From positions 1 through 40,908 of the forward strand of contig CAITJF010000203.1 in NCBI GenBank assembly GCA_903892645.1: a stretch of 40,908 nt of DNA, read 5' to 3'. This document shows, in pieces, positions 9,073 to 35,499 of this stretch (the stretch's first letter is position 1; every line of letters begins with the position of its first letter). The stretch is from an uncultured Nitrosomonadales bacterium (GTDB lineage Bacteria; Pseudomonadota; Gammaproteobacteria; Burkholderiales; Gallionellaceae). The translations under genes were made by a program, and so were the position numbers. Below the pieces are notes generated by a model, which worked only from the letters and a program-made list of their open reading frames with translations, was not told where the DNA came from and did no database searches.

Positions 9073-9854
9073 TTTACCCAAGGCGCCCTCTCTTGTTCGT
9101 AGAGTGTGTTTAGCAACTGGTACTCGCGGCTGGTATCCATGGGCTGCCAGAAACCATCATGCTCAAACACCATTAACTCACCGTCAGCCACCAGTTTACG
9201 CATGGGCTCCTGCTCAAAAACCAGATCTTCGGCATCATCAAGATAGTCGAATAATTTTTTGGTTGCAACAAAGTACCCCCCGGAAATCCGCCCACCGGCA
9301 GCCTGGGGTTTTTCATTAAACTCCACTGCCCGCCCGCCCTCGCTGACCAACTCACCGAAGCGCCCTGGCGGGCGCACCCCAGTAACGGTCAGTGCCTTAC
9401 CATGAGCCCGATGAAAAGCTAACAACGCCTCAATATCCACATCTCCAACACCATCACCGTAAGTCAGCATGAAGTCTTCGTCACCAACATACTTTCTAAT
9501 TCGGGCAATGCGCGCTCCGGTCATTGCTTCCAAGCCCGTATCAACCAGCGTTACACGCCAATCTGATTCATCATGCACAGTATGAAATTCAATTTCATCA
9601 CGCTTGCCTAGCGTTATAGTAAAGTCTTTGGTATGTGCCTCATAATTCAGAAAGAAATCCTTGATAATTTGGCTCTTATAGCCAAGACACAATACGAAGT
9701 CATGATGGCCAAAATTCGCGTAATATTTCATGATGTGCCACAAAATCGGGTAGCGCCCGATCGGGATCATCGGTTTGGGAATATTGTCGGCCACATCACG
9801 AATGCGCGTTCCATAACCACCACATAGAATTACCGTCTTAAGAGGTTTAACCAT
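9066..9854 (-). CDS. ddhA: Glucose-1-phosphate cytidylyltransferase
   Basis: This 262-residue nucleotidyltransferase makes CDP-glucose from CTP and glucose-1-phosphate. It shows the N-terminal ILCGGYGTRIRD signature with the catalytic Arg, IPKPMIPIG, the metal-binding MLTYGDGVGDV and FGELVSEGG. These fit the RfbF/DdhA family and its usual length of about 257. The ATG at 9854 starts right before the first strand (MVKPLKTVIL); a TTG at 9905 would add 17 residues without similarity. It is the first gene of the tightly coupled CDP-sugar block. It follows the longest non-coding gap of the window, so a promoter may lie upstream, though I see no convincing one. Confidence 0.95.
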   Translation of the reverse strand: MVKPLKTVILCGGYGTRIRDVADNIPKPMIPIGRYPILWHIMKYYANFGHHDFVLCLGYKSQIIKDFFLNYEAHTKDFTITLGKRDEIEFHTVHDESDWRVTLVDTGLEAMTGARIARIRKYVGDEDFMLTYGDGVGDVDIEALLAFHRAHGKALTVTGVRPPGRFGELVSEGGRAVEFNEKPQAAGGRISGGYFVATKKLFDYLDDAEDLVFEQEPMRKLVADGELMVFEHDGFWQPMDTSREYQLLNTLYEQERAPWVKW

Positions 9855-10342
9855 ATTGTCTATCGTCCCGAAACCAATTATTTTTGAATCAACTAGCAAA
9901 CTCAATTAACGACTGATTGACATCAAGATTCTCTCCACTCACACTTTTTCTGGGCCAAATAACAAGTGCCAGCAGCGTGTGCAGTGTCAACCCGCTCCCA
10001 AAAGCTGCGCAGTACCTCTTGCAAACGACATTCGCAAACGCTCCCCCCAGCAACATTCCAATCAAACCTGGATTCAACATAAGCAATCGATCAATGGTCG
10101 GTGTAGCCCACAACACCGTATCGCCTCAGCTTCATTGAGCGAATCCATAAATTCTTCACTTTCATTTTTAAAGTATCTAACAAAATACGCATATGTTAAA
10201 TCGAATTCTTAATAATTTATCCTGCGGTAAGCTTCGCTCTGTATTTTCGTCTTCCGACGACTGGGTTTCATGCTACCAGTTTTTCGTCATACCGAGTAAA
10301 GCCGCCATTCAGTCAAAATAATATTGAATCGCGGGTAGAGAG
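9855..10342. other. 488-base intergenic region with possible decayed gene remnant
   Basis: This is the only gap over 300 bases. On the minus strand a short open stretch from the GTG at 10116 to 9889 encodes 75 residues with a hydrophobic middle (LNPGLIGMLLGG). Stops cut the three minus-strand frames upstream of it. I recognise no family and see no ribosome binding site. It could be the remnant of a deleted gene or plain spacer. The 10140-10342 part is AT-rich. No terminator hairpin with a T run and no clear -35/-10 pair is visible. Confidence 0.4.
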
Positions 10343-12229
10343 TTAATATTCCGCCAGCCCCAACAAATGCCGCCAGCGGGGCAGTTTTTCATTCAGGCAA
10401 AAATAAGGTTCCGTCTCCAAGTCACTACTCTCCCAGGAACGAGACAAAGCATCAGCAAGTTCACTGGGGTTGGTGGCATAAGTTACACCAGCCAACCCGC
10501 GCAACGGACTCATATTAAAAGTATCGCCATCGAGCACCGACACCACGGGAATACCCGCACTGTAGGCATCTACAGCAGCGGACGTAATGTTGCTCGTATA
10601 AACCACATCACAATCACCAAACAAATCAGCCAATGGAGCATCAATAATCTGTAACTGTAGCGAGGGATATTCATTTGCCCTAATTGGGCAAATAGGATGA
10701 GGTTTGACGATATAACGAGTATCAGGTGGCAGAATAGAGGCTGCCGCCATGAGCCATTTCATCTGCTGCCGAGTAATAGAAAGCAAGTAGTCTCCCAATA
10801 TCAACACGCGGAGAGATGCTGCTGGCAACCGCTCGGCGGTCTTCCGTTCAGGCAACAGGTTAACCAGATGCAAATAACGCAGCGCTTCCACTTCCACGAT
10901 TTTTTCTTCCGGAAACTTCCCTTGCAGGTAGGCGGCCATACCGGTCAAGCCATTCAGAGCGACAAAATCTGGCAAGGGTAAATCATTATTGCCGGTATGC
11001 TTATAACTACGGGGATCAAAAAAATAACGCAAGTCCCAATACCTGACGGTTGAGTGAGGCACACCCACCAATTCTCCATGACCGGCAGCCCTCCACGCAT
11101 GGACAAAGGCCATCTCCCAAGCCATATTTTCCTGCAGATAGACACCTAGCTTTTGGCGAGGCAAGCATTCAAGAGTCTGTTCAATAAGGTTCAGAAACAG
11201 ACAATTCGACATCGCAGTAGCGCCGAATACCGAACTGCTCCAATCTTGCTCAAATAATGGCCAAAGATTAATCCTGGAATCTGCTGGTCTGAAATGAGGC
11301 TGCATTTTGCGTAAACGCATGCCCATTAACATTATGCGAGCATAGTCGTATACGACATTCCAGACCACAGACCAAGCCAGAGCTCCATCCAGGGTTGCAT
11401 GGAATTGAATGCCGGCGCTGTTCTGGTTAAAACGGGTGATCAATTCCCGTGCACCTTGTGTTGTAGAAACTGCCGCATGGTCAATGTAGTGATGCAGCCA
11501 ATTGACCCGCACGGCATCACGGTCCAATGCGGTAATGAGGCCTGTCCAGTAATTTGAACTATATCGCCCTGTCACCAAGGCGGCTGGGCTCAGATGCGCC
11601 AGATAATCAACAAAGGTAATTTCACCGCTTGCGGATGAGCGTGGAAACGTCCCGTTTTGCTTAAGCGGCCACCTCTGCCAGAGATACCGCAATAGAAACA
11701 CCAGCGCTTGGGCCGGATGCGGCAACGAACAATAAAGTCTTCTAATCCACGAAACGGGATTCACCCCGTCTGCCAAGCGGTGCCATTCGAACACCATATC
11801 AGTTTGGCCACACCACTCGCGGAAGACTCGTGCCAAGATTTTGTCACTGCTGGCCAAGATGATTCTGCCAACCGGATGAGCGCTGATCAGCTCCTCCAGT
11901 GCCAATAATCTCACTGCGTCGTATACTTGCGGAGACTTGGCAATATTACATTTCTCCGCAAGAAGGGTCATCCACCAGTAGCTAAAACCCGGCCGCAGTG
12001 TCAAATGATCTACCAGACGTTTCCCATTAATCTGCGCCTCACCCAAATCGTAAATCCAGCCCAGAAAACGCGCTCGTAGCGCATCGGCCTGCTCCTCTAC
12101 CCGCCTTGGAATTGAATACACAGAAACATCGCCACTCTCGCCGAACCCCCGCCAAAGCACAGGAATCCATTCTCCTTCAGGGGGCTTATTATCGCCGTCC
12201 CAGACCAAGAATGTCAGGCGATCCGTCAT
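10343..12229 (-). CDS. TIGR04326-like surface carbohydrate biosynthesis protein (putative GT-B-like transferase)
   Basis: This large 628-residue protein resembles, from memory, the TIGR04326 family described from Leptospira-type O-antigen loci. The C-terminal third looks like the donor half of a GT-B enzyme: VLILGDYLL, a KPHP motif (RYIVKPHPICP), DVVYTSNITSAAVDAYSAGIP and VSVLDGD. The N-terminal part has no domain I can name. No transmembrane segment is certain. It lies 34 bases after the KdsB-like gene and ends the unusual ulosonic/cyclitol module, so it may be the transferase for that module's CMP-sugar. That role is inference. The enzyme class has not, to my knowledge, been settled. Confidence 0.72.
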   Translation of the reverse strand: MTDRLTFLVWDGDNKPPEGEWIPVLWRGFGESGDVSVYSIPRRVEEQADALRARFLGWIYDLGEAQINGKRLVDHLTLRPGFSYWWMTLLAEKCNIAKSPQVYDAVRLLALEELISAHPVGRIILASSDKILARVFREWCGQTDMVFEWHRLADGVNPVSWIRRLYCSLPHPAQALVFLLRYLWQRWPLKQNGTFPRSSASGEITFVDYLAHLSPAALVTGRYSSNYWTGLITALDRDAVRVNWLHHYIDHAAVSTTQGARELITRFNQNSAGIQFHATLDGALAWSVVWNVVYDYARIMLMGMRLRKMQPHFRPADSRINLWPLFEQDWSSSVFGATAMSNCLFLNLIEQTLECLPRQKLGVYLQENMAWEMAFVHAWRAAGHGELVGVPHSTVRYWDLRYFFDPRSYKHTGNNDLPLPDFVALNGLTGMAAYLQGKFPEEKIVEVEALRYLHLVNLLPERKTAERLPAASLRVLILGDYLLSITRQQMKWLMAAASILPPDTRYIVKPHPICPIRANEYPSLQLQIIDAPLADLFGDCDVVYTSNITSAAVDAYSAGIPVVSVLDGDTFNMSPLRGLAGVTYATNPSELADALSRSWESSDLETEPYFCLNEKLPRWRHLLGLAEY

Positions 12230-12263: not shown

Positions 12264-13007
12264 TTAGAGGCATTGCATCAAGCGCTCGACCTTGCGCAAA
12301 TCGTCCGGCGTATCCACTGCATGAGTGTCATGCAGTGTCGGAACCATGCGTACCTTCAACCCATGTTCCAGAACACGCAACATGTCCACAGATTCGGAAA
12401 TTTCCAGCGGTGTTGGTTGCATACGCGTGTATTCAAGCAGAAAATCGCGCCGGAAAGGAATAATGGCAACCTGTTTACCCATGGGAATCTTGTCGGCCTT
12501 GCAGCGTGTCGGAATCGGCTCGCGGGAGAAATACATCGCATTAAGGTTCAGATCGCATACCACCTTTATGCAGTTGCGGTCCTCGAATTCGGCCATATCA
12601 TTGATCTGTCCAAGCAGGTTAACCACCTGAACATCAGCCTCATCCAGCAGCGGTTGCACAGCCTCGGTAATCATATCAGGGTGTGTCATGGGTTCATCGC
12701 CCTGCACCATCACCACAATATCGTAGCGAGTCTTGTTAACCTCTTCCAGTTTCACTAGAGCTTCGGCGCAGCGATCTGAAGCACGTTCGTGCTGGTCACC
12801 GGTCATGACGGCAACGCCGCCGATTGACTCGATATAGTCATAGATTTTCTTGTCACAGGTAGCCACAGCGGTCAACATCAGCAGAGGGGATTTGGACACG
12901 CGTTCGTACACATGACCGATCATAGGCTTGCCGAGAATCGGGGCCATAGGCTTGTCAGGGAAACGGCTGCTGCCCATGCGGGCTGGAATAAGCGCTAGTA
13001 TTTTCAT
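12264..13007 (-). CDS. Divergent KdsB-like CMP-ulosonate cytidylyltransferase
   Basis: The 247-residue protein has the CMP-Kdo synthetase fold markers: an IPARMGSSRFPDKP start (8-21), GKPMIGHVYER (26-36), the metal site VQGDEP (101-106), AMYFSREPIP and a TPDD-type end. KdsB normally couples CTP to Kdo. Two sugar-site motifs differ here. The Kdo-enzyme HxSGTxR motif reads HERASDR (73-79), and the GIYGYR strand reads AIIPFRR. The substrate is therefore probably a related 2-keto-3-deoxy acid, not Kdo; this is inference. The start is the ATG at 13007, 13 bases after the upstream stop; a TTG at 13043 would overlap the upstream gene. The gene closes the aldolase/cyclase module. Confidence 0.85.
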   Translation of the reverse strand: MKILALIPARMGSSRFPDKPMAPILGKPMIGHVYERVSKSPLLMLTAVATCDKKIYDYIESIGGVAVMTGDQHERASDRCAEALVKLEEVNKTRYDIVVMVQGDEPMTHPDMITEAVQPLLDEADVQVVNLLGQINDMAEFEDRNCIKVVCDLNLNAMYFSREPIPTRCKADKIPMGKQVAIIPFRRDFLLEYTRMQPTPLEISESVDMLRVLEHGLKVRMVPTLHDTHAVDTPDDLRKVERLMQCL

Positions 13008-13020
13008 GAAATAATTTCTC

Positions 13021-13998
13021 TTATAATTTTTGACAAACGACAAGCATATGAGAACTCAAACCATGGCCTGCAATAAACATCTGCATAGCCTGTTTTTCAT
13101 CCTCAGCTGCTTGAATAACAAAGGTTCGCCAGAAGCGGTCTTTAATGTGTTGCTGATTATTGCAAAGGATATCGATATCCAGCTTACCCGGCGTGCTGGT
13201 TTGCAATACAGTAAAGCCGAGGCGGTTAAGCAGAATTTGAACTGATTTAGGATTCAGAAAATTTAGATGGTGGGGTGGCGAAACAGATTTTGAATCTTCC
13301 CAGAGTGCTTGAATATCAACCCCAGCGCCAGAAAGTGTTGTAAAAATAAATATATCTCCGACGGACATTAAATCGAGCAAGTGACGCAAAAAACTTTCCG
13401 GGTCATGCAAATGCTCAAAGAGTTCAAAACTCACAAAAGCTTTGGGGCCAACTTCTAGCTGTTCCGTTCTAATATCTTCAAGGAAATCTTGCACGACCTT
13501 AATCCCCTTGTCCCGGCAAACTGTTGCAAGCGCCGGGCCGGGTTCAATCACAGTAACCTGCTGACCTGAAATTTTCTCAAACTCTTCGGCAAAGATACCG
13601 TACCCCCCACCGATATCAACTATGGATTGTTGCGCTGTACCAAACTGTTTGATTAACTCATGGACCATCCGCGTCCTAGGTAGCCAGAGTTTTTCCCGGC
13701 GTGCTTCGGCAGTTTTCTTGTAAAAGGTTGAAGCCCAGTATTTTGCAGATTCAGATTCCTGATAATAGCGAGAAAATGCCTCCCGATGCGGACGAGGACT
13801 GACAAACAATGTCTGGCAAGTGGGGCACTCTTCATAGGTAAAGCCGTGCTTGGTGAAGGAAAAAATACCATTAAGCCCACAGGCCGGGCAACAAACAGGC
13901 AGGCATTCACCAGCGCCGAAGTACTTCTGCGTGTCTATTTCGGCAAGTCGCAGATATTCGTCGAATATCTGCTTGGGGCGAATTTCGTCTTCTTTCAT
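13021..13998 (-). CDS. Class I SAM-dependent methyltransferase with N-terminal zinc ribbon
   Basis: The 325-residue protein has an N-terminal zinc-ribbon-like CPAC...CPTC (Cys37, 40, 58, 61). A Rossmann methyltransferase domain follows with the SAM motif VDIGGGYGIFAEEF (near 137) and a VIEPGP acidic strand end. Such zinc-ribbon methyltransferases are common in polysaccharide and sugar-tailoring loci, where they methylate nucleotide-linked or lipid-linked sugars. The substrate cannot be read from sequence. It sits 12 bases after an FkbM methyltransferase and 13 bases before the KdsB-like gene, inside the unusual ulosonate module. It may thus methylate that module's sugar. Confidence 0.85.
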   Translation of the reverse strand: MKEDEIRPKQIFDEYLRLAEIDTQKYFGAGECLPVCCPACGLNGIFSFTKHGFTYEECPTCQTLFVSPRPHREAFSRYYQESESAKYWASTFYKKTAEARREKLWLPRTRMVHELIKQFGTAQQSIVDIGGGYGIFAEEFEKISGQQVTVIEPGPALATVCRDKGIKVVQDFLEDIRTEQLEVGPKAFVSFELFEHLHDPESFLRHLLDLMSVGDIFIFTTLSGAGVDIQALWEDSKSVSPPHHLNFLNPKSVQILLNRLGFTVLQTSTPGKLDIDILCNNQQHIKDRFWRTFVIQAAEDEKQAMQMFIAGHGLSSHMLVVCQKL

Positions 13999-14010
13999 TA
14001 ATGGTTGCTA

Positions 14011-14745
14011 TTACAGGATTAGGTTCTGATTCAGGTAGATCACCTCTGCCCAATCCGTACGACCATTCATTGGGTTATTTGATATCTCGCTGATACTAAA
14101 TAGCCGAAATCCTAGCGGTAACAGGATATTCTCAACATCCATAAAAGAAGTTTGGTGCTCGTAGTAATCAAAAAAACTAATTTCCAAAATGATGGCTCTT
14201 GTGTTTCGAAGGGTCGCCTCCGCGCCAAGCAACACTTTACACTCAGCTCCCTGAACATCAATTTTGAGAAGATCAATTTGACTTATTGAATGCTGCCTTG
14301 CAAAACTATCCAGCCGAACCGTTGCAACCTTCACTTCTTCATTGAAGTTCTCAAAATACTGTGTGCTCTTTTCTGCAGTCGCGTTCACAATACCGATGGA
14401 ATCTCTGCTGTTCAGATTAACTTTAAGTAAACTATTTGTGTGGGAAATTCTGTTTCGATAGAAAGATGCCGTGCCGTCTGCATCCGAAAACGCCAGATTA
14501 AAATAAGACACCCTTTCTACTGCAGCGGCAGAAAGTACGCTAAAAGAATCAGGATCAGGCTCGAATGAATAGATATGAGCCTTGGGAAAGAGTGGTTTCA
14601 AGAAAGCCACGCTTTCACCGTAGTGCGCACCCACATCGAAGATGACGGGTTCTGCCGCCGGTACAATATGCTGAATGAGCCGCTTACGGCTAAACTTTTC
14701 CTGAAATTCTTCGTTTCGTGATTTTGATTGTCCAACGTTTTCCAT
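14011..14745 (-). CDS. FkbM-family methyltransferase
   Basis: The 244-residue protein carries the FkbM pattern: VIFDVGAHYGES (SAM motif I), IYSFEPDPDSF (acidic loop), DLLKIDVQGAECKVLLGAE and ILEISFFDYYEHQ. FkbM enzymes use SAM to O-methylate hydroxyl groups of sugars or polyketides. The DLLKIDVQGAE motif is intact, so the enzyme should be active. It begins with an ATG 12 bases after the aldolase stop and is followed 12 bases later by the zinc-ribbon methyltransferase. It is the second FkbM gene in this region (the other is at 20047-20886). The exact hydroxyl it modifies is unknown. Confidence 0.88.
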   Translation of the reverse strand: MENVGQSKSRNEEFQEKFSRKRLIQHIVPAAEPVIFDVGAHYGESVAFLKPLFPKAHIYSFEPDPDSFSVLSAAAVERVSYFNLAFSDADGTASFYRNRISHTNSLLKVNLNSRDSIGIVNATAEKSTQYFENFNEEVKVATVRLDSFARQHSISQIDLLKIDVQGAECKVLLGAEATLRNTRAIILEISFFDYYEHQTSFMDVENILLPLGFRLFSISEISNNPMNGRTDWAEVIYLNQNLIL

Positions 14746-14757
14746 GGAAAGCCTTCT

Positions 14758-15519
14758 CTATAAAATTGGGGATGTAGTGGATTTATTCAGGAACACTGCA
14801 TCAGTCGAATAGGCGATAAACCGATACCCCTCAGCAATCCGCTGCTGCAATGCATCAGTATCCGGCATGACCACATGCACGCCGGAGGGGACGCAATGCC
14901 GGCTGCAAAGGGCGCGGATGCGATCCATCGCTGCTATAAACTTAGGCGAATCAAACTTTGCAGTCAGCCCCATGGAAGCGGAGAGGTCATACGGTCCGAT
15001 CAGTACCGCATCCAGCCCCTCGACCTGGAGAATTTCATCCAGATTCTCGACAGCACGGATGTGCTCGATCATCGCCACCAACAACGGCGCTTGTGCTTCT
15101 ACAGCATATGCATCAAAGTGCTTGCCAAACAAGTTGGCGCGGGAAAAACCAACCCCACGAGTGCCCGCTGGCGGCCAGCGGCTGGCATCGCGCACTTTGA
15201 TCAATTGTGCCGCACTTTCAATCATGGGAACGATCACGCCCCCTGCTCCTGCATCCAATGCCTGCTTGCAGTCTTTGGGCTGCCCTTCGGCGAGACGCAC
15301 CAAAGGCAAAGTGCCGCCAATTTCCAGCGCACGAAAGATGTCGGGTAGCTGGCTGACACTGATAGCGCCATGCTCCATATCCACAGCTACCCAGTCGTAG
15401 CCAGCCTGTCCCATGATCTCGGCCACGGACGAATGTGGAATCTGCATCCAACTGCCAATGGACAGATGGTTTAAAGCCAGCGATTTTCGGATGGCAGCAA
15501 TTTTTTCGAAGCGATTCAT
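14758..15519 (-). CDS. HpcH/HpaI-family class II pyruvate aldolase
   Basis: The 253-residue protein matches the HpcH/HpaI/GarL family, which reversibly joins pyruvate (or a close relative) to an aldehyde to give a 4-hydroxy-2-keto acid. Key residues are present: His50 in MEHG, Arg75 in VRLAEG, and the metal ligands Glu152 (AMIEH) and Asp178 (GPYDLS). The TRGVGFSRANLFG loop is also family-typical. In catabolism it would split sugar acids. Beside a KdsB-like activating enzyme and a 2-hydroxyacid dehydrogenase it may instead build a 2-keto-3-deoxy acid, which is inference. A 112-base gap separates it from the upstream gene. No strong Shine-Dalgarno sequence is visible. Confidence 0.9.
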   Translation of the reverse strand: MNRFEKIAAIRKSLALNHLSIGSWMQIPHSSVAEIMGQAGYDWVAVDMEHGAISVSQLPDIFRALEIGGTLPLVRLAEGQPKDCKQALDAGAGGVIVPMIESAAQLIKVRDASRWPPAGTRGVGFSRANLFGKHFDAYAVEAQAPLLVAMIEHIRAVENLDEILQVEGLDAVLIGPYDLSASMGLTAKFDSPKFIAAMDRIRALCSRHCVPSGVHVVMPDTDALQQRIAEGYRFIAYSTDAVFLNKSTTSPIL

Positions 15520-15631
15520 AGTTCGATCAGGTCCATAATTGGGTTACCTGCATAAGTTATTAATCATACAATAATCTTTCGGATTAACGCTGCGAGCGGC
15601 CAGAGTAATGTTGCTTGATTGATTTGTGCTT

Positions 15632-16576
15632 TCACGCTGCTCCTTCGGGAATTTCATTTACATCCAAGCCGTCGATCGCTGCCCTGCCCATGGCCAGGAT
15701 CGCCTCGAAGGCGCTGCCGCCAATATGTGGTGTGACCAAAAAATTGGGCAGCTCCAAAAGTTCTGTGTCCTGCGGTGGCTCAATAGCAAAAACATCAAAG
15801 GCAGCTGCTGCCAAGTGCTTTCCCTTGAGTGCTTGCTTGAGGGCAGACTCATCCACTAGGCCACCGCGCGCCGCGTTGATGAGAATAGAGCTTGGCTTCA
15901 TCAGCGCAATACGCTCAGCACTCAGAATCCCGCTTGTACTGTCGTCCAGCGGCACGTGGAGCGTAACCACATCCGCGCGGGCCAGCATATCTTCCAACCC
16001 CATCGCCTCAATATCATATTCGGCATAAAAATCATCGTAATCGCGGATGTCATTAACCAGAATTTGGCAGCCAAAAGGCTGGAGGAGTCTAACGAGATCC
16101 TTGCCGATATGGCCGCAGCCGATGATCCCAACGATTCGTCCGGACAGAAGCCCTCCCACGTGCTGGCGCCAAATGCCGGATAATACCTCGCGGTTGGCTG
16201 CCGGAACATGGCGCAGCATGGCAATGGCAAATGCGATTACCAGCTCGGATACGGAGCGCCGGTTAACCCCGCCGGTCCAGCCCAGTCGTTTGCCATAGGC
16301 ACGCATGGCCGCCATATCTATCATATCCAGCCCAACGCCGTATTTACTGATAACCTGAAGTTCGGGTAAACGGGCAAGAACATATTCATCAATAGGCTCA
16401 AGGGCGGTAATGGCCTTATCGTGCCCCCTAAGAAACTCGACCAAGCTATCACCCTTTAACTGGAGGCCCGCATCATTAAAAGTGACCTGTTGATAACGTG
16501 CCAGCAATTCGTTACGCAGAACAGGATTATGTGAAAAAGAGCGGGAACAGACGGCAACTTTGACTATATGGTTCAT
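15632..16576 (-). CDS. D-isomer-specific 2-hydroxyacid dehydrogenase (SerA/phosphoglycerate dehydrogenase-like)
   Basis: The 314-residue protein has the two-domain D-2-hydroxyacid dehydrogenase layout. The NAD motif is GIIGCGHIGKDL (about 150-161). The catalytic Arg237 (NAARGGLVDES), Glu266 (AIEPPQ) and His284 (TPHIGGSA) are all present. It should interconvert a 2-keto acid and a D-2-hydroxy acid with NAD(H). I chose the ATG at 16576, which overlaps the stop of the cyclase gene (ATGA); a longer frame to 16606 has no similarity. It is too far from biosynthetic serine genes to be assumed to be serA. Its place between a cyclase and an aldolase suggests a sugar-acid substrate. Confidence 0.88.
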   Translation of the reverse strand: MNHIVKVAVCSRSFSHNPVLRNELLARYQQVTFNDAGLQLKGDSLVEFLRGHDKAITALEPIDEYVLARLPELQVISKYGVGLDMIDMAAMRAYGKRLGWTGGVNRRSVSELVIAFAIAMLRHVPAANREVLSGIWRQHVGGLLSGRIVGIIGCGHIGKDLVRLLQPFGCQILVNDIRDYDDFYAEYDIEAMGLEDMLARADVVTLHVPLDDSTSGILSAERIALMKPSSILINAARGGLVDESALKQALKGKHLAAAAFDVFAIEPPQDTELLELPNFLVTPHIGGSAFEAILAMGRAAIDGLDVNEIPEGAA

Positions 16577-17658
16577 ACAGTTATCTCCGCGAGAAACTGT
16601 GCGCATTGAGAACGAAAGATCTCATCCGGTGGAACCTGTACCCGCTGAATTTCCGCATCAGCGCCCACAGGAAAAATCAGGCCAAGCATAGTGCTGGTAT
16701 TTTTCTTGTCTTTCATAAGCGCAGAAAGCATTACATCAACCGGTATCGAAGTTGTTGCATATTCCCCATAATTTTTACGCAGAGTCGTATGCATCCGATG
16801 GTAGTGCTCTTCCGGTAACAAACCGCGCTCTGCAGCAATGTAGTTGGCCATATCCATACCAATGGCCACAGCAATGCCATGCGGCACTGCATAATTTGTC
16901 GCTGACTCAATCGCATGACCGAAGCTGTGTCCATAATTGAAAATATTGCGAATTCCGCGGTCAAACTCATCCTCCTCAATAAACCGTTTCTTGATAAGCA
17001 GGGCTGACCGAATATATTTCAGGAGTACCGCCCGGTCATCAAACAAACGGTCAAAATCAGCCGCTAACCGGTCAAACGCTTTAACCCCATCTATCGCATG
17101 AACCTTAATGATCTCTCCGATACCCGATTGCACATCTTTCTGCTCTAGGGTTTCAAGAAATCCTGTGTGGATAAATATATTCTGGGGAGGATTGAAGGTA
17201 CCAAGAATATTCTTGGTGGCCCCAAGGTTAATGGAGCTTTTGGAACCAATGCACGAATCTGCTTGAGCCAGCAGAGTCGTGGGTACAAAGCGCCAAGAAA
17301 GACCCCGCAAAAGCGTGCTCGCAATAAAACAGGTGATGTCCTGAATTATGCCGCCCCCTATCGCGACCAGCGTATGGTCGCGCCGCACCTTATTCAGAAC
17401 CAGCCGCTCAATAACAGGTATCGTTTTTTCTATTGATTTATTCTCTTCCGTTGCCTCGATAACAATGGTGTTTGGATAATCAAGAATGGCATGGAAATCG
17501 GAGGCATATAATCGCGCCACATTGGCATCGATCAAAAAATGAGGCGTCCCTTCAAACAGGCGAGCGTTGTCGGATAATAGTGTGTCATCGAAAACTACCG
17601 TGTATGGCCCTCTATGGGATTGAATGACCAACTTCTCAGACACGGCTAAAGCCTCCAT
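16573..17658 (-). CDS. Dehydroquinate-synthase-like sugar phosphate cyclase (AroB superfamily)
   Basis: The 361-residue protein has the AroB fold signature: IGGGIIQD (100-107), RGLSWRFVPTTLLAQAD and KNILGTFNPP. The three likely zinc ligands are Glu182 (GEIIK), His244 (YGHSFGH) and His260 (VPHG), with Lys185 beside them. In true AroB the glycine-rich loop reads VDSSVGGKT; here it reads ADSCIGSKS, and DxxGFxA reads DITCFIA. Family members cyclise heptulosonate or ketose phosphates using bound NAD. Substrate and product here are unknown. The gene overlaps the SDR upstream by 23 bases and the hydroxyacid dehydrogenase downstream by four. With these neighbours it is more likely part of a cyclitol or ulosonate route than of the shikimate pathway. 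Confidence 0.87.
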   Translation of the reverse strand: MEALAVSEKLVIQSHRGPYTVVFDDTLLSDNARLFEGTPHFLIDANVARLYASDFHAILDYPNTIVIEATEENKSIEKTIPVIERLVLNKVRRDHTLVAIGGGIIQDITCFIASTLLRGLSWRFVPTTLLAQADSCIGSKSSINLGATKNILGTFNPPQNIFIHTGFLETLEQKDVQSGIGEIIKVHAIDGVKAFDRLAADFDRLFDDRAVLLKYIRSALLIKKRFIEEDEFDRGIRNIFNYGHSFGHAIESATNYAVPHGIAVAIGMDMANYIAAERGLLPEEHYHRMHTTLRKNYGEYATTSIPVDVMLSALMKDKKNTSTMLGLIFPVGADAEIQRVQVPPDEIFRSQCAQFLAEITV

Positions 17659-18352
17659 CTATAGCGATGTTTTGGCCGGCAAGATAAGTGTTCTCTTCAC
17701 TGGCGAGCCAGAGAACCAGGCGAGCAATTTCATCTGCCTGTCCGAGTCGACGTGCTGGCACTGTAGAAACGATGGCTTGTATCCCATCCTCTCCGAGTAT
17801 CCGCCGGGTCAACTCGGTATCAATAAAGCCTGGTGCAATGCAGTTCGCCAAGACACCATCGGCCGAGTGTTCAGCAGCTAGCGCCAGCGTCATGCCATCC
17901 AGTGCAAATTTACTGGTGGAATAGGATGCCCTGTGTTCCTTGCTGATTTTCCCCCAGATTGAAGATACATTGACAATCCGCCCCCAGCCTCTGCGTACCA
18001 TAGCCGGAATTGCCGCTTGGCAAAGCAAAAACGGCGCGAACACATTCACCTGCTGGATGGACTGAAAATCATCCGGGTTGATCTCGGCAAATGGAGCGAT
18101 TTTATTAATGCCCGCATTATTGACCAGCACATCGGGTTCAGCATGGCGCACGAAGCCAGCACAAACCTTGATTTGCCCAATATCCGAAAAATCAGCGGTA
18201 ACCCACTCTTGGCAAATATCATCCACTTCACTGTTTTTGCCTGTGCGGGTACCAATCACCCACGCACCCTCAGTTCGAAATGCTTGCGCAATTGCCCGCC
18301 CAATCCCCCTTGAGGCACCAGTGATAAATACTTTCTTGCCTGAGAAGCGCAT
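17636..18352 (-). CDS. Classical SDR oxidoreductase (FabG-like)
   Basis: The 238-residue classical short-chain dehydrogenase has the TGASRGIG cofactor motif (11-18), NNAG (78-81), the catalytic Ser130/131, and Tyr144-x3-Lys148 (SYSTSK). The IDGGFSRV end is also typical. It should oxidise or reduce a hydroxyl/keto group with NAD(P)(H). Its gene lies 12 bases after the SIS isomerase and overlaps the cyclase gene by 23 bases. It therefore probably acts on a sugar phosphate or cyclitol in that pathway and not in fatty acid synthesis. The substrate is not readable from sequence. Confidence 0.87.
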   Translation of the reverse strand: MRFSGKKVFITGASRGIGRAIAQAFRTEGAWVIGTRTGKNSEVDDICQEWVTADFSDIGQIKVCAGFVRHAEPDVLVNNAGINKIAPFAEINPDDFQSIQQVNVFAPFLLCQAAIPAMVRRGWGRIVNVSSIWGKISKEHRASYSTSKFALDGMTLALAAEHSADGVLANCIAPGFIDTELTRRILGEDGIQAIVSTVPARRLGQADEIARLVLWLASEENTYLAGQNIAIDGGFSRV

Positions 18353-18364
18353 AACCTTTGACCC

Positions 18365-18967
18365 CTATACCGCCCGGACATACCGCATCAGATACGCACC
18401 CACAAGATGGTCGAGGACCATATGTGCGTCCTCGGCAGGACCATATTCCCTGGGCTCGGTTGGCACATGGACGCCCTCGTCGGCCATGGCTCTCATCTTG
18501 CCCCCATCGAAGGCGGTAATAGCCACGGTCTTGATGCCAGCCGAAAGAGCATAGTCAAAGGCCTTGATCAGGTTAGGTGAATTGCCAGAAGCTGAAATGG
18601 CGACCAACACATCCCCTTGTTTTCCTAACACCCGAAGTTGCCTGACAAAAATTTCTTCATAGCCGAAATCATTACCCAATGCCGTGAGTACAGGCACATT
18701 GTCGGTCAAGCTAATGACGCGGAACGGCTGCTCGTAGTCATTGGTGCCATATGCCAGATCATTGGCAAAGTGGCTCGACGTGGCAGCGCTACCGCCATTA
18801 CCGATAAAAAATATCGTGGCGCCACGACGGCGCGCATCCAACAAGGTTTCAATGAAGCGGGCGATGTCGGCGGTATCAATACGCCCCAGGACTAATTGCA
18901 GGTATTTGATGTAGGCTTCGGCAAAAGCGGCGGGCTCCGATGTAAAAAAACGATCAATATTATTCAT
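18365..18967 (-). CDS. GmhA-like SIS-domain sugar phosphate isomerase
   Basis: This is a 200-residue SIS protein with the GmhA-type phosphate-binding motifs FIGNGGSAATSSHF (54-67) and ISASGNSPN (124-132), and a C-terminal DAHMVLDHLVG helix. GmhA converts sedoheptulose 7-phosphate to D-glycero-D-manno-heptose 7-phosphate. In GmhA the HFAEEL helix carries the catalytic Glu; here it reads HFANDL, leaving Asp at that place. A related but different sugar phosphate is thus possible. I chose the ATG at 18967, which overlaps the oxidoreductase stop (ATGAATAA); a longer frame to 19072 would overlap by 113 bases. The SDR gene follows after 12 bases. Confidence 0.86.
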   Translation of the reverse strand: MNNIDRFFTSEPAAFAEAYIKYLQLVLGRIDTADIARFIETLLDARRRGATIFFIGNGGSAATSSHFANDLAYGTNDYEQPFRVISLTDNVPVLTALGNDFGYEEIFVRQLRVLGKQGDVLVAISASGNSPNLIKAFDYALSAGIKTVAITAFDGGKMRAMADEGVHVPTEPREYGPAEDAHMVLDHLVGAYLMRYVRAV

Positions 18968-20006
18968 GGTTGTCTGGGTTAGGAATGTTATAAGTTTCAC
19001 GCCAAGCGGCATCTGCATAGTAAATCTTGAAAACCAGTTGCATGGTGCGCAAAGCATCTTCGGACGTGCCACTCTGCACCGGCTTGTCGTTCAAGATGGA
19101 GTCCGCAAACACAGCGATTTCTTCGTCCCAAGATGTGTCCTTGTTGTAACGTGTGATTTGCTCCCTGGGGTCACCACGGTCATTGTCCGGGTCAGCCTGC
19201 ACCACAGTCAATGTTTCGGCACCGTAGCTCTTGGTTCCGGATAGAATCCCCCCCAGAATGAGACTGCCTCGGTCCAGGTTGATATCAAGGTGAAAGCGAT
19301 GCCGCCACTGTGTTGCCGAGGAATTGAGCATACCGACAACCCCATTTGCCGTTCGCATCAATGCGTAAGCGTTGTCTTCAACATCATAGCCCCAATGGCT
19401 ATTGGAAATGAAGCTGTGCACTTCAGTGAAGTTGCCCCCGAGCAGGCGCATGAGGTCAACCATATGTATCCCTTGGTCAAGCAATACTCCACCACCCGCA
19501 ATCTCACGCTTGGTGCGCCAGTCCGGCTGGTTGAAGGTAATGAGCTTCGCCTTGCCGTAAACACCGCGCATATTGATGACGCGGCCAAGCTCCCCGGAAC
19601 GCAAGATACGCAGGGCATCCTGTACGGACTCGTGGTAGCGATGATTGAAACCATACATGAGCCTAAGTGCAGGGTGCTGACGCTCGTGGGCAATGACGCG
19701 CACAATGTCTTCAACACTGCGACCCGGCGGTTTTTCGCAAAAAACATGCAGGCCAGACTCCAAGCCCGCGATCGTTACCTCTGCCGCAATGTCGTTAGTC
19801 AGGCAGACGATCAGTACGTCCAGATCCTCCGTTAGCAACCGACGGTAATCCTGATGGTAGCGAATACCGTCAGGAAGCGTGCCCTCCCCGTCAAAAGTCT
19901 GGTCGCACACCGCGACCACGTGCATATGCGGATGGCGATCAATGCAGTCTTTGCGACGTTTCCCAACCACACCGAACCCGGCAATGCCCACTTTCAAATA
20001 ACTCAT
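18960..20006 (-). CDS. Gfo/Idh/MocA-family oxidoreductase
   Basis: The 348-residue NAD(P)-dependent oxidoreductase has the Rossmann start VGIAGFGVVGKRR and the EKP motif with catalytic Lys (VFCEKPPG). The GIHMVDLMRLLGG helix carries the conserved His and Asp. All core residues are present. Family members oxidise or reduce ring hydroxyls of sugars and cyclitols. The ATG at 20006 has a good ribosome binding site (GAGG six bases upstream), so I prefer it to the TTG at 20015. It overlaps the SIS gene by eight bases, linking it to the cyclase module. The substrate is unknown; a cyclitol or sugar phosphate is a reasonable guess. Confidence 0.88.
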   Translation of the reverse strand: MSYLKVGIAGFGVVGKRRKDCIDRHPHMHVVAVCDQTFDGEGTLPDGIRYHQDYRRLLTEDLDVLIVCLTNDIAAEVTIAGLESGLHVFCEKPPGRSVEDIVRVIAHERQHPALRLMYGFNHRYHESVQDALRILRSGELGRVINMRGVYGKAKLITFNQPDWRTKREIAGGGVLLDQGIHMVDLMRLLGGNFTEVHSFISNSHWGYDVEDNAYALMRTANGVVGMLNSSATQWRHRFHLDINLDRGSLILGGILSGTKSYGAETLTVVQADPDNDRGDPREQITRYNKDTSWDEEIAVFADSILNDKPVQSGTSEDALRTMQLVFKIYYADAAWRETYNIPNPDNHE

Positions 20007-20046: not shown

Positions 20047-20886
20047 CTACCTGACCCAGATCTGGTTAAAAGTATACTGCGCCATGCCAGTATCGAAGAC
20101 CCCAGCATGCCTTTTTTCTTTAAGGGAAAATCCGGCTTCCTGAAGATACATATTTGCATCGTTAGCCTGAGTAGTAAATTTATCATTTATTTCAATCAAA
20201 ATACTCTTTGTTTTAGATAGGATGGGTGCACCACCCTTGAGTATCAAGTGCTCGATTCCATCAACATCCATCTTGATGTAGTCGGGTTGCGGAATTTTGA
20301 GAAACTCAACGGCATCAACCATGGAAAGACCTATTGTTGGAAATTTGAAGGCCTTAAGCATAACCTGCCCATCATGCCCATAATCCTGTCCAAACGTAGA
20401 CAACGCACCTCCCCACTCGGTAGTCGTCATATTGAGTGTGTTGACAGACAATGTATCAGAAAGCGGTAGCGGGACGATGGTGACCTGCTCCGTCAACCCA
20501 TTGAGAAAAATGTTGCGCGCCAGCAGTTCGAGATTAAAGACCGACGGCTCAAAGGCAAACACCCTGCAACCTCGCTGCTTGGCAGCGTAGCAAGAGTACA
20601 GCCCTACATTCGCCCCAATATCCCAAACTACCGAACTTCTGGGTATGCCATCGATCCATTCTAAAGTTTCCGGCTCCTTGGATGAGAAGCTGTCGGCACG
20701 GTATTTATTGAGCGTGTTGGGAATGGAAAAAGTTAATTTCAATCCCGAGTGACTCACCTCTTGTGTCCGGCTCATCGCATTATTGATAATCTGGGTGTAA
20801 AAATAGCGGCCAACAACCGTTTTGCCCATAAGGGCAATTAACCCGTTAATGAGCCGCTTAAGGCCAGACTTGATGATTTTTTCCAA
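20047..20886 (-). CDS. FkbM-family methyltransferase
   Basis: The 279-residue protein shows the FkbM core: VVWDIGANVGLYSC (SAM motif I), VFAFEPSVFN, DYIKMDVDGIEHLILKG and ILIEIND. It should O-methylate a hydroxyl group on a sugar of the repeat unit. The frame starts at a TTG (20886); no nearby ATG precedes the conserved part except Met20, so the exact start is unsure. It lies 36 bases after the FAD/Fe-S dehydrogenase gene and 40 bases before the Gfo/Idh gene. The acceptor is unknown. A second FkbM gene lies at 14011-14745. Confidence 0.86.
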   Translation of the reverse strand: MEKIIKSGLKRLINGLIALMGKTVVGRYFYTQIINNAMSRTQEVSHSGLKLTFSIPNTLNKYRADSFSSKEPETLEWIDGIPRSSVVWDIGANVGLYSCYAAKQRGCRVFAFEPSVFNLELLARNIFLNGLTEQVTIVPLPLSDTLSVNTLNMTTTEWGGALSTFGQDYGHDGQVMLKAFKFPTIGLSMVDAVEFLKIPQPDYIKMDVDGIEHLILKGGAPILSKTKSILIEINDKFTTQANDANMYLQEAGFSLKEKRHAGVFDTGMAQYTFNQIWVR

Positions 20887-20922: not shown

Positions 20923-23778
20923 TTAAGTATTTACCAGCACACTCCGAAAAAACTGCGCCAGATGCTGCGGTTTGGCACTGCTTAGATCCCTAAACTGATG
21001 ACGGCAACTGGCACCAGAAACTAACAGCACGGTAGTAACTTCATTTTCGGCTGGCAAACGCACATTATTTTGAAAAATTCTTTTTGACAAGCTACTGTGC
21101 CGATAACCAAAGCCGCCACCCATTCCACAACAGCCCGTAGAAATAATTTCTGCGTTGAGGCCAAACATGCTATTTAAAAATACTACCATAGCCGAGGCAT
21201 TACCCGTCACTCGTTCATGACAATGCGGATGAAAATAGACCGTTTGGTCATTTGCAGGCAAGGCCGGACTTTTTAATCGGCCTGCAACATGCTCGTGCAA
21301 TAGAAACTCATCCAGCAAAAAACATTTTTCCATCAAATCGGCGGGGTAAGCATCACCCAAAAGAGCGGGGGCTTCATCGCGCAATAATAGCAATTCCGCC
21401 GGTTCGAGGCCGATAATCGGTTTCGCGCCCCTAGAGATCAAATCATCCAGAAGGCAACGCAACCTCTTTTTTGCCTGGCCCAAGAGGCCTTCGCTCACCA
21501 GCAGCCGTATAGAGCTATCCATGAAGCAGAGTTCAGGATCATAACCCAAGCGTTGCAACACGAAGATCGCCGCTTCACCGATTTCCGGCTCAAGGTGGTT
21601 GACGTAGGGATCCACCAGCAACAACACTGGTCGCAGTCCATCTCCAGGTGTGGTTACCGTTGTATACCTGGCACCCGCGCGACGGCTCAACACTACCGGC
21701 GCAGGCATCGGTGGCTTGCGCTCCAGCCCCGCCAGCCTCATCACCAAAGTCGTGCGCGCAAAGCGACCCATCAGGATACGTAATGCTTTCGGCTGCATCG
21801 CAAACAATGTTAACAACAGAGGTTGCATTCCCATCAACCATTGCTTCGGCTGCCACAAGCGGCCGCGCTGACGGCGGCACAAATATTCCGCTTTCATCCG
21901 TGCCATATCCACGCCGGATGGGCATTCGGTCTTGCATGCCTTGCAGCCTAGACAAGTCTCCATAGCCTCGGCCAGCACAGGGTCGTCCAACCCCGCACCA
22001 CTTGGTTGTAAGAAGGCTTGGCGCAGCAAATTGGCCCTGCCCCGCGTGCTGTGCAACTCTTCACCCGTGGCCTGGAAAGTGGGGCACATGGCACCACGAC
22101 CCGTTCCCTGCCGGCAATTGCCGCTGCCATTGCAGCGCTCAAGCACCAGGTCAAAACCGCCGTCGGCTTGCCAATCAAAACCAATGGGCGAAATTTGCGT
22201 TGCAATTCGAGGGTGTCGGCGTATATGCGCATCCACCGGTTGGTCGGAGAGAATTTTCCCCTGATTAAATATCCCGGTGGGATCGAAGGCTTGTTTGACT
22301 TGGCCCAGCAAGGCATAAACTTCCTCGCCGAGAAATTCGCGCAAGTAGGGTGCACGCAGGCGGCCATCACCGTGTTCGCCAGACAAAGAGCCCCGATAAT
22401 GCTTAACCAGGGAGGCGGTTTCCTCAGCAACGCGCCGGAATGTGGCCCGGTCAGATTCGGCATCGAGATCAAGAGCGGGACGCAAGTGCAATAGGCCCAC
22501 CGAGGCATGCCCATAATAAACGCAGTCAAGACTGTAGCGCTCCATTATTTGGCCGATGTCACGGGCAAAGCCGGGCAAAGCATGAACAGGAACCGCACTG
22601 TCTTCGATCACCGCTACAGGACGGGCTCTTTGGCGCAACCCCATGAGCAGCCCCAAACCGGCTTTGCGCAAAGTCCACACCCGTGATGCATCGGCGCCTT
22701 CAAGCACCGGCCAGGCCGTACCCAAGCCTTCTGCTTTCATGATGCCGACAGCTTGCTCGGCCTTGATCCTGGCATTGGCAGGCGTGTCTGCGAAAAATTC
22801 TGCCGCCAGCACGGCAGCGGGATTGCCGACCACCCAAGCGCAATTGGCTCGCTGGCCGGGGTGATCGGCGGCGGCTCGCAATATATTGGCGTCCATCAAC
22901 TCACATGATGCCAAACCGTCTTGCGCCAGCAAACGAATATTAGCCCTGAGCGCCGCATCGAGAGAATCAAAATGGATGCAAGCCAAAGCCTTACCCCTTA
23001 CCAACGGCGAAAGTTTGAGGCGTATAGCCGTGGCCAAAGCAAGCGTGCCTTCGCTGCCGCATATCAATGACGCCAAGTTGAATTGCGCTCCACCATCCAT
23101 CCATGGCTGTGCTTGTGCCAGGGCATCCAGGGCATAACCGGTGTTGCGGCGAATAACGCCGGGATCCGGATAATTAGCAAGAATAGTGTCACGGTGACAG
23201 CTAATAACGCCATAAACTACGCGGTATATTTCACCCTCAAGCCCGGAGGCTTGGCACTTGGCTTCGAGAGCCGGTTCCTCAAGAGGCCCAAAGTGCACAA
23301 TACTTCCATCGGCCAGTACCGCCTTTATTTCGAGCACATTTTCCCGCGTGGTGCCGTAAACAATGGAGTGTGAACCCGCAGCGTTGTTGCCCACCATGCC
23401 ACCGATCGTACAGCGGCTGGAAGTGGAAATATCAATCGGAAACTGCCAACCCAAAGGACGCAGATAATCATTCAGGTCATCCAGAACCACTCCGGGCTGC
23501 ACCCATATCGCCCCGTTTTCAGGCAGCGACAGGATGCCTGCCATGTGGCGGGAAAAATCAACAACAACACCTTCCCCGACACACTGCCCAGCGATGCTAG
23601 TGCCGCCGCCGCGGCAAATCAGGCTACTACATTCGTCTCTGGCCCGGTTTACCAGGGCGATGCACTCTTCCTCGTTCCGGGGAAAGGATACCCCGGCTGG
23701 CTCTTGTTCATAAACGGAAGCATCAGTTGAGTAAAGGCGGGGATCGGTAGCTGCGTTAACGCTCATGTAAAACGCCAT
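20923..23778 (-). CDS. FAD-linked oxidase fused to 4Fe-4S ferredoxin/CCG domains (YdiJ/GlcD-GlcF-like 2-hydroxyacid dehydrogenase)
   Basis: This 951-residue fusion has an N-terminal PCMH-type FAD domain (CRGGGTSIAGQ at 55-65, IGGMVGNNAAGS at 125-136). The FAD-oxidase C-terminal domain carries GEHGDGR (467-473). Two cysteine clusters bind Fe-S (CNGSGNC...MCP, 549-566; CLGCKACKTECP, 609-620). A C-terminal CCG-type domain ends the protein (HPHCHE near 851, GCCGMGG at 882-888). Relatives oxidise D-lactate or similar D-2-hydroxy acids and pass electrons onward. Such an enzyme is odd in a polysaccharide locus. It overlaps the LIC12162-like gene by 23 bases, so it does belong to the operon. An ATG at 23766 is an alternative start. 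Its substrate is unknown; a 2-hydroxy sugar acid would fit the neighbours. Confidence 0.9.
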   Translation of the reverse strand: MAFYMSVNAATDPRLYSTDASVYEQEPAGVSFPRNEEECIALVNRARDECSSLICRGGGTSIAGQCVGEGVVVDFSRHMAGILSLPENGAIWVQPGVVLDDLNDYLRPLGWQFPIDISTSSRCTIGGMVGNNAAGSHSIVYGTTRENVLEIKAVLADGSIVHFGPLEEPALEAKCQASGLEGEIYRVVYGVISCHRDTILANYPDPGVIRRNTGYALDALAQAQPWMDGGAQFNLASLICGSEGTLALATAIRLKLSPLVRGKALACIHFDSLDAALRANIRLLAQDGLASCELMDANILRAAADHPGQRANCAWVVGNPAAVLAAEFFADTPANARIKAEQAVGIMKAEGLGTAWPVLEGADASRVWTLRKAGLGLLMGLRQRARPVAVIEDSAVPVHALPGFARDIGQIMERYSLDCVYYGHASVGLLHLRPALDLDAESDRATFRRVAEETASLVKHYRGSLSGEHGDGRLRAPYLREFLGEEVYALLGQVKQAFDPTGIFNQGKILSDQPVDAHIRRHPRIATQISPIGFDWQADGGFDLVLERCNGSGNCRQGTGRGAMCPTFQATGEELHSTRGRANLLRQAFLQPSGAGLDDPVLAEAMETCLGCKACKTECPSGVDMARMKAEYLCRRQRGRLWQPKQWLMGMQPLLLTLFAMQPKALRILMGRFARTTLVMRLAGLERKPPMPAPVVLSRRAGARYTTVTTPGDGLRPVLLLVDPYVNHLEPEIGEAAIFVLQRLGYDPELCFMDSSIRLLVSEGLLGQAKKRLRCLLDDLISRGAKPIIGLEPAELLLLRDEAPALLGDAYPADLMEKCFLLDEFLLHEHVAGRLKSPALPANDQTVYFHPHCHERVTGNASAMVVFLNSMFGLNAEIISTGCCGMGGGFGYRHSSLSKRIFQNNVRLPAENEVTTVLLVSGASCRHQFRDLSSAKPQHLAQFFRSVLVNT

Positions 23779-32910: not shown

Positions 32911-32913
32911 TTT

Positions 32914-34422: not shown

Positions 34423-34464
34423 GATGGCTCCGTCAATTACCTGATGTCACAGCATGCATTGACA

Positions 34465-35493: not shown

Positions 35494-35499
35494 CGTTTC

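Follow-up and report, generated by a model that had tools for sequence, protein, structure and literature searches.

The block at positions 12264–20006 of the window (the whole stretch of 40,908 nucleotides analysed, from an uncultured Nitrosomonadales bacterium) is part of a surface-sugar locus, and its product is probably an acidic sugar of unusual type, perhaps with a carbon ring. The gene set that unites its cyclase with a CMP-transferase is conserved and is not known to have been described before. In the preferred reading, to which a probability of about 45% is given, a cyclase cassette would make a carbocyclic sugar acid, a KdsB-like enzyme would activate it as a CMP donor, and an aldolase module would modify or extend it.

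The block consists of nine ORFs on the minus strand; the preliminary description had spoken of eight adjacent genes, and all the genes it named do exist on this strand, but the count is nine. Its statement that overlaps bind most of them holds for three pairs (Gfo/SIS, SDR/AroB-like and AroB-like/2HADH), while the remaining neighbours are 12–13 bp apart with the exception of one 112-bp gap. At one end lie a KdsB-like cytidylyltransferase (12264–13007; PF02348), a Methyltransf_23 methyltransferase with a Cys-rich N-terminal segment (13021–13998), an FkbM-family methyltransferase (14011–14745) and a pyruvate-type HpcH/HpaI aldolase (14758–15519), the last being an optional member; the two methyltransferases go with the HpcH/KdsB module. 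The gap, the sole large one (15520–15631), separates the aldolase from a PGDH/PdxB-like D-2-hydroxyacid dehydrogenase (2HADH, 15632–16576) of the cyclase cassette. Its promoter-like matches are in no excess over shuffled sequence, and comparison of loci places there the boundary between the cassette and the HpcH-KdsB module. Then come the DHQ-synthase-family cyclase (16573–17658), an AroB-related putative sugar phosphate phospholyase whose ORF has an alternative GTG start at 17643; an SDR oxidoreductase (17636–18352), which adjoins the cyclase in nearly all loci; a GmhA-like SIS-domain isomerase (18365–18967), which scores 116 bits, under the GmhA cut-off of 209; and a Gfo/Idh/MocA oxidoreductase (18960–20006).

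The genes on both sides, also on the minus strand, extend this picture. A second FkbM methyltransferase (20047–20886) belongs to the cassette neighbourhood, with copies 64–74% identical in L034–L038. It is followed by a YdiJ-like FAD/4Fe-4S D-2-hydroxyacid dehydrogenase (20923–23778), a probable accessory, of which a full-length homolog (40% identical) stands directly before SIS-Gfo-SDR-cyclase in L115 and a partial one is found in L032. On the other side, the TIGR04326 surface-carbohydrate protein (10343–12229; 551 bits against a cut-off of 250) is a candidate glycosyltransferase for the CMP-sugar and is also found near a KdsB-like gene in L035, L036, L037, L074, L094 and the L038 locus; a profile search with it found no solved relative, and its fold model is poor (pLDDT 55.6). 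As the preliminary description stated, no PEP-dependent KdsA/NeuB synthase lies within the block. A PseI/NeuB gene (31828–32910) occurs 12 kb upstream, in a separate, pseudaminate-like block. The KdsB-like enzyme is disfavoured as its partner, because the PseI block has its own PF02348 CMP-transferase (35500–36309) and, where NeuB is lacking, the KdsB-like gene goes with the cyclase or with the aldolase.

The cyclase scores 479.7 bits against TIGR04425, an uncharacterised, hypothetical NCBI family with a cut-off of 400, but only 262 bits against the AroB model TIGR01357 (cut-off 305), and the same genome carries a separate true AroB on contig C119; it is therefore not the housekeeping AroB. 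TIGR04425 is also matched by 30 of 34 aligned homologs at E ≤ 1e-119. All the listed catalytic and substrate-binding residues of DHQ synthase are kept in the 43 cyclases from genome loci, and the equivalents of K250, R264, N268 and H275 are invariant in these and in 80 viral cyclases (123 in total), whereas the valiolone synthase 4p53 departs in the alignment from DHQ synthase at K250, N268 and H275; with 4p53 aligned, K223 and N241 of the cyclase are invariant. The retention of DHQ-synthase residues at EEVS-variable positions points to a 2-keto-acid phosphate as the likely substrate. The AlphaFold2 model (pLDDT 92.3) has a DHQ synthase as its top PDB match, and in the fold search DHQ synthases rank above DOIS and valiolone synthase, 2-deoxy-scyllo-inosose synthase matching only in overall fold (TM 0.82). 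The heptulose-derived precursor suggested earlier, that is, a valiolone-type cyclase acting on sedoheptulose 7-phosphate, fits these residues poorly, and a cyclase of this kind was dropped as first choice since EEVS-type substitutions are absent. The search of a plasmid collection gave no TIGR04425 match, the isolated-phage collection gave only AroB-like matches (29–35% identity, some in cellular records), and TIGR04425 is named in no paper found. Annotation can easily label the genes of such cassettes AroB, KdsB or GmhA.

The KdsB-like protein belongs to the NF009905 subfamily (287 bits, cut-off 255) and scores below the cut-off of the kdsB equivalog TIGR00466 (138 bits against 155.2). In the tree it stands apart from housekeeping KdsB, and it has a Gln (KQVAIIPFR) at a position where true KdsB conserves a His (KHVGIYAYR). 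The metal-binding aspartates of the CMP-Kdo synthetase KdsB are D95 and D219 (PMC3149649), and the motifs that hold both, QGDEP and VDTP, are intact. Since the true KdsB of the genome is located on C156, the block gene is not the housekeeping one, and we infer that it activates a sugar acid with CMP.

The block genes recur together across phyla, far beyond chance. Among bacterial loci, a CMP-transferase (PF02348) is found within 12 kb in 22/22 complete cyclase loci with an adjacent Gfo/Idh gene (Gfo-positive) and in 0/23 Gfo-negative ones (Fisher p 2e-13, the loci not being independent), so that Gfo predicts the CMP-transferase, and 2HADH copies 55–79% identical adjoin the cyclase in most Gfo-positive loci. 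Conservation of the set in other genomes, proposed earlier as a check, is thus borne out; the preliminary description had also named outcomes that would tell against it, for instance that the cyclase is AroB, and it withstood these tests, the genome's own AroB and KdsB being on other contigs. The 80 independent IMG/VR contigs with a cyclase divide into 39 CMP-positive and 41 CMP-negative loci. SIS occurs in 38/39 of the former against 1/41 of the latter, and a GT29-like (sialyltransferase-family) gene in 26/39 against none of the 41; both associations persist after clustering at 70% identity. Gfo and 2HADH are absent from most viral loci, and the acid there would need another source.

Starting from the observed genes, their conservation, the cyclase–CMP-transferase association and the retained DHQ-synthase residues, we infer all the substrates, the step order and the product of the pathway that follows. 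Module 1, the cassette Gfo-SIS-SDR-AroB-like-2HADH with the second FkbM gene and the FAD/Fe-S dehydrogenase upstream, would take a central sugar phosphate and form from it a hydroxy acid that is free of phosphate and probably carbocyclic. SIS would produce an aldose phosphate, Gfo would oxidise C1, 2HADH or the FAD/Fe-S enzyme would oxidise C2 to give the 2-keto acid, the cyclase would remove phosphate and close the ring in the way that DHQ synthase acts on DAHP, and SDR would reduce the ring ketone. In L045 a 6-phosphogluconolactonase-family gene separates the cyclase from 2HADH, and L036, L037 and L046 have one close to the cassette; this is what a C1-oxidation step would predict. A quinate-type product would have OH and COOH on one carbon, like the anomeric carbon of Kdo, and would thus be a carba-analogue of an ulosonic acid. 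Module 2, the KdsB-like enzyme and two methyltransferases with the TIGR04326 transferase alongside, would convert the acid into the CMP donor for a surface glycan, and the HpcH aldolase, tied to module 2 here, probably adds pyruvate or otherwise alters the sugar. Several points speak against the preferred reading. A carbocyclic CMP ester would be hard to use in glycosyl transfer, there being no ring oxygen to stabilise the cation; the acid in most viral loci would, as said, need another source; conserved residues are no proof of a substrate; and the HpcH and KdsB-like proteins encoded in the window share 72–75% identity with their counterparts in L094, a locus without a cyclase, so that they may serve a cyclase-independent sugar.

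The aldolase is where the explanations divide. It scores 114.5 bits against PF03328 (cut-off 25), its nearest solved relatives are YfaU (2vws) and the hydroxyketoacid aldolase 6r62, and it stays under the HpaI, GarL and rhamnonate aldolase equivalog cut-offs (152, 127 and 131 bits against 368–441). The preliminary description had it replace KdsA/NeuB, which does not agree with the distribution: of the 22 Gfo-positive bacterial loci, all with a CMP-transferase, only 12 have an aldolase, and aldolase and NeuB are both missing from 38/39 CMP-positive viral loci. L112 and L114 are operons in which cyclase and CMP-transferase stand together with no aldolase. The KdsB-type step therefore does not generally depend on the aldolase, and the general logic suggested by gene content is cyclase plus CMP-transferase, not an aldolase in place of KdsA. 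A serial route close to that of the preliminary description, in which the cassette makes a carbonyl acceptor that HpcH joins to pyruvate, the resulting 2-keto-3-deoxy acid being activated by the KdsB-like enzyme, is less likely than the preferred reading. In its favour, L043 and L044 have HpcH-KdsB interleaved with the cassette genes, and L046 and L097 have it immediately upstream of them; two distant aldolase subfamilies were recruited beside KdsB-like genes in cyclase loci; and L094 keeps the frame TIGR04326-KdsB-MT-FkbM-HpcH with HAD/epimerase/2HADH genes in the cassette's place. However, the aldolase is missing from 10/22 bacterial and 39/39 viral CMP-positive loci, where another module (aminotransferase, Gfo2) would have to make a different CMP-sugar, and a DHQ-synthase-type product offers a carboxylate, not an aldehyde, for the aldol step.

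It is unlikely, too, that two separate sugars are made, a CMP-ulosonate by HpcH and the KdsB-like enzyme and a cyclitol-type residue by the cassette, even though either module is found alone: HpcH with KdsB-like and without cyclase in L094 and L096, and the cassette without HpcH in L035–L037, L112 (aminotransferase-Gfo2-KdsB-Gfo-SIS-SDR-cyclase-2HADH) and L114 (SIS-Gfo-SDR-cyclase-2HADH-SDR-CMP-transferase). The module trees conflict as well (AU p 2e-31), and the 112-bp gap lies between the modules here. Against this, the constant company of Gfo-positive cassette and CMP-transferase is not expected of chance neighbours, and no other candidate activator of the cassette product is seen in the block. 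In favour of the preferred reading, one cassette type is combined with three different KdsB modules, each ending in a PF02348 enzyme. A functional link of aldolase and KdsB-like enzyme is plausible in itself, given that most cyclase loci with an aldolase have the two genes close to each other, as do L094 and L096. Methyltransf_23 homologs are found in L094 (59%), L044, L045, L043, L039 and L042, and those of the block FkbM in L094 (56%) and L038 (40%). It is very improbable that these are ordinary enzymes which happen to lie in an O-antigen locus, AroB and KdsB as spare copies and the aldolase as a catabolic one: although every protein is from a common superfamily, the spare copies were rejected on the profile results and the true copies on C119 and C156, the aldolase is under the catabolic cut-offs, and the set recurs across phyla.

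The preferred reading ties the orphan TIGR04425 cyclases to CMP-sugar activation, both in several phyla and in contigs with a viral classification, and it offers a concrete pathway open to testing; the literature search found no paper uniting the block genes in one pathway. Carbasugars are mainly known from secondary metabolites. If the product is carbocyclic, carbasugars would enter surface glycans, and residues of unexplained biosynthesis could be accounted for. The wider scheme, in which DHQ-synthase-like cyclases lead to carbocyclic ulosonic acid analogues that are activated by KdsB/NeuA-family enzymes and passed by sialyl/Kdo-type transferases to bacterial glycans and, in some viral contigs, to possibly phage-encoded ones, is possible and is put forward tentatively; if it is true, CMP-carbasugars would be a class without earlier description.

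Bradyrhizose was set aside: the part of the bradyrhizose report considered (PMC4743980) describes an eleven-gene cluster centred on dTDP-glucose 4,6-dehydratase and holds no cyclase for comparison. Several known systems are partly similar. The conserved operon of the ebo cluster also includes a cyclase from an uncharacterised clade (EboD, NF004852; PMC5133447), but of another subfamily with other partners, and EboD departs from DHQ synthase where TIGR04425 does not. C7-cyclitol and aminocyclitol pathways (valiolone and DOI synthase) also place dehydrogenases after a sugar phosphate cyclase, with a cyclitol expected, and some cassette variants share their aminotransferases; they differ in the EEVS-type substitutions, whereas the present set has a CMP-transferase partner and a surface-polysaccharide context. 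With sialic and pseudaminic acid systems it shares the PF02348 CMP-transferase and, in many viral loci, the GT29-like gene, but in 38/39 CMP-positive viral loci the NeuB-type synthase is absent and a cyclase is present instead. The Kdo pathway (KdsD-KdsA-KdsC-KdsB) has a SIS-type isomerase and a KdsB-family CMP-transferase for a presumed acidic sugar donor in common with the block, which in contrast lacks KdsA and a KdsC-type phosphatase, has a phospholyase-type cyclase and an optional aldolase, and carries a KdsB-like enzyme below the equivalog cut-off. AroB of the shikimate pathway shares the cyclase fold, the NAD, metal and phosphate residues, K250/R264/N268/H275 and, presumably, the phosphate-eliminating ring closure; TIGR04425 is set apart by fixed differences (Q106, W122, C136, P157 and others) and by its place in surface-sugar operons next to a CMP-transferase, in an organism that has its own AroB.

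The window is one complete contig, C203, of a metagenome-assembled genome of 2.68 Mb in 268 contigs, and the ORF survey found 12264-20006 to be filled by nine minus-strand ORFs, whose identities had been called correctly in the preliminary description, although eight genes were counted there. In the order of transcription they encode Gfo/Idh, SIS, SDR, an AroB-like cyclase and a D-2-hydroxyacid dehydrogenase (2HADH), and then, after a gap of 112 bp, HpcH/HpaI, FkbM, Methyltransf_23 and KdsB-like proteins. Two further genes are upstream of the block: 20047-20886 encodes a second FkbM protein, and 20923-23778 a YdiJ-like FAD/4Fe-4S dehydrogenase, the score of which is under the YdiJ cut-off. The block is also flanked by two large proteins, one of the TIGR04326 family downstream (10343-12229) and one of the TIGR04331 family on the other side (23756-25519); both belong to surface-carbohydrate families named after Leptospira, and Pfam gave no match for either. 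Elsewhere in the window, a separate pseudaminate-like block (31828-37724) contains PseI (511 bits), a PseG-PseH fusion, a PF02348 CMP-transferase and a class-III aminotransferase, and the RfbF, RfbG and RfbC homologs at 7553-9905 form a CDP-sugar branch of the same locus; such homologs are also close to several related cassettes in other genomes (L032, L034, L039 and L044).

The window cyclase is distinct from AroB: it reaches 479.7 bits with TIGR04425, which NCBI lists as a hypothetical equivalog, while its AroB score of 262 bits is below that model's cut-off of 305. The same genome has an ordinary AroB on contig C119 and an ordinary KdsB on C156. TIGR04425 genes above the cut-off are rare: counting the window's genome each time, it alone among 41 relatives has one, and such genes occur in 2 of 369 genomes at class level and 5 of 399 at phylum level. 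At the positions of DHQ-synthase R130, D146, K152, N162, E194, K250, R264, N268, H271, H275, H287 and K356, the same residues are retained throughout the 43 cyclases from genome loci, apart from a single gap at K356, and throughout the 80 viral cyclases; in the viral set, K197 is frequently replaced by His. Valiolone synthase (4p53) departs from DHQ synthase at K250, N268 and H275, and EboD also departs from it. In DHQ synthase, K250 and R264 hold the carboxylate of the substrate. The best matches of the predicted cyclase structure (pLDDT 92.3) are DHQ synthases; DOI synthase comes 26th and valiolone synthase 43rd. Because the DHQ-synthase residues are retained and DHQ synthases are the top fold matches, a 2-keto-acid phosphate is favoured as the probable substrate.

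When species genomes were scanned, 44 loci proved to contain a cyclase relative, and the gene set does recur elsewhere: several betaproteobacterial MAGs have Gfo-SIS-SDR-cyclase-2HADH in unchanged order, with identities of 70-89%, and there are comparable sets in Sphingomonas, Gemmatimonadota, Desulfovibrionaceae, Legionella and other groups. Per-family profiles were run across all loci, that is, these and further loci from other genomes. A PF02348 CMP-transferase lies within 12 kb of the cyclase in all 22 complete loci with Gfo near the cyclase and in none of the 23 cyclase loci without Gfo, even at E 1e-3 (Fisher p 2.4e-13, for loci that are related and partly supplied profile seeds). In L113 the cyclase is 67% identical to that of the window, yet Gfo, 2HADH and the CMP-transferase are absent. 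Another setting of SDR-cyclase, without Gfo or CMP-transferase, occurs in L052-L072 and L075 (Firmicutes and others), mostly alongside RfbF/RfbG/RfbH-type CDP-sugar genes, and probably represents a different pathway. A cupin domain is fused C-terminally to the CMP-transferase in L114 (6689-7840) and in viral loci such as L130 (6192-7316). By eye, the L114 cassette adjoins an apparent flagellin/regulator region, which hints at flagellar glycosylation there. In L112, an aminotransferase-type cassette is accompanied at 1120-2946 by a B12-binding radical SAM protein, and by several methyltransferases.

The IMG/VR contigs, classed as viral by that database and outside the set used to build the bacterial-locus profiles, gave an independent test with 80 further cyclase loci (L118-L197), 39 of which have a CMP-transferase near the cyclase. 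SIS is present in 38 of these 39 and in 1 of the 41 others (p 2e-20); with profiles built from viral loci, a GT29-like gene is found in 26/39 versus 0/41 and a class-III aminotransferase in 26/39 versus 2/41. These associations persist after clustering at 70% identity. One GT29-like member is above the Pfam sialyltransferase cut-off. Among the 39, NeuB occurs once and the aldolase in none; a NeuB-family gene is near the cyclase in 17 of the 41 CMP-transferase-negative loci. TIGR04425-type cyclases are common among these contigs, about half of which carry a compact SIS-SDR-cyclase-CMP-transferase set, often with the aminotransferase and GT29-like genes; among isolated phages, searches turned up no close relative.

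The earlier proposal, with the HpcH aldolase as the key replacement for KdsA, is probably wrong, since only 12 of the 22 Gfo- and CMP-transferase-positive bacterial loci have one; the aldolase is an optional member of the gene set. L112 and L114 are compact operons of cassette and CMP-transferase without aldolase, and in L035-L037 and L112 its place is taken by a HisC-like aminotransferase, a second Gfo and a divergent KdsB. The aldolases of L032, L046 and L097, at 28-31% identity, belong to a different subfamily and have a fumarylacetoacetate-hydrolase-family gene close by. In addition, L094, which lacks the cyclase, retains TIGR04326-KdsB (75%)-MT-FkbM-HpcH (72%), with HAD, hexapeptide, epimerase and another 2HADH gene in place of the cassette, and L096, also without cyclase, has KdsB-HpcH-2HADH-epimerase-HAD-lactonase-family. 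With 100/99 support, the cyclase tree places the window in a group with L032, L034, L035, L036, L038 and L039. The HpcH tree places it with L094, L095 and L043, and rejects a clade of the window with L034, L038 and L039 (AU p 2e-31); in the KdsB tree it pairs with L094 (100/99), apart from housekeeping KdsB. According to these conflicting trees, the cassette and the KdsB module of the window differ in history and are joined at the 112-bp gap.

On the substrates that we infer, SIS would yield an aldose phosphate and Gfo would oxidise C1; in L036, L037, L045 and L046, which have a lactonase, this enzyme would then open the lactone. The 2-keto acid would be made by either the FAD/Fe-S enzyme or 2HADH, after which the cyclase would eliminate phosphate and close the ring, and SDR would reduce the ketone. 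The FAD/4Fe-4S protein at 20923-23778 may be a cassette member oxidising a 2-hydroxy acid, because a full-length homolog (40% identical) immediately precedes SIS-Gfo-SDR-cyclase in L115. In those loci that have an aldolase, the window's among them, it would lengthen or modify the sugar. The pathway has two weak points: glycosyl transfer is chemically difficult with a carbocyclic donor, and the HpcH and KdsB-like proteins of the window are similar to those of a cyclase-free locus.

The preliminary description was right that a new pathway module exists: it is real, conserved, built from known enzyme families and undescribed in the literature as far as searched. Its putative product would have both OH and COOH on one carbon, as in the anomeric carbon of Kdo, so that a KdsB-family enzyme could possibly attach CMP there; KdsB itself uses the C2 hydroxyl adjacent to the carboxylate (PMC3149649).
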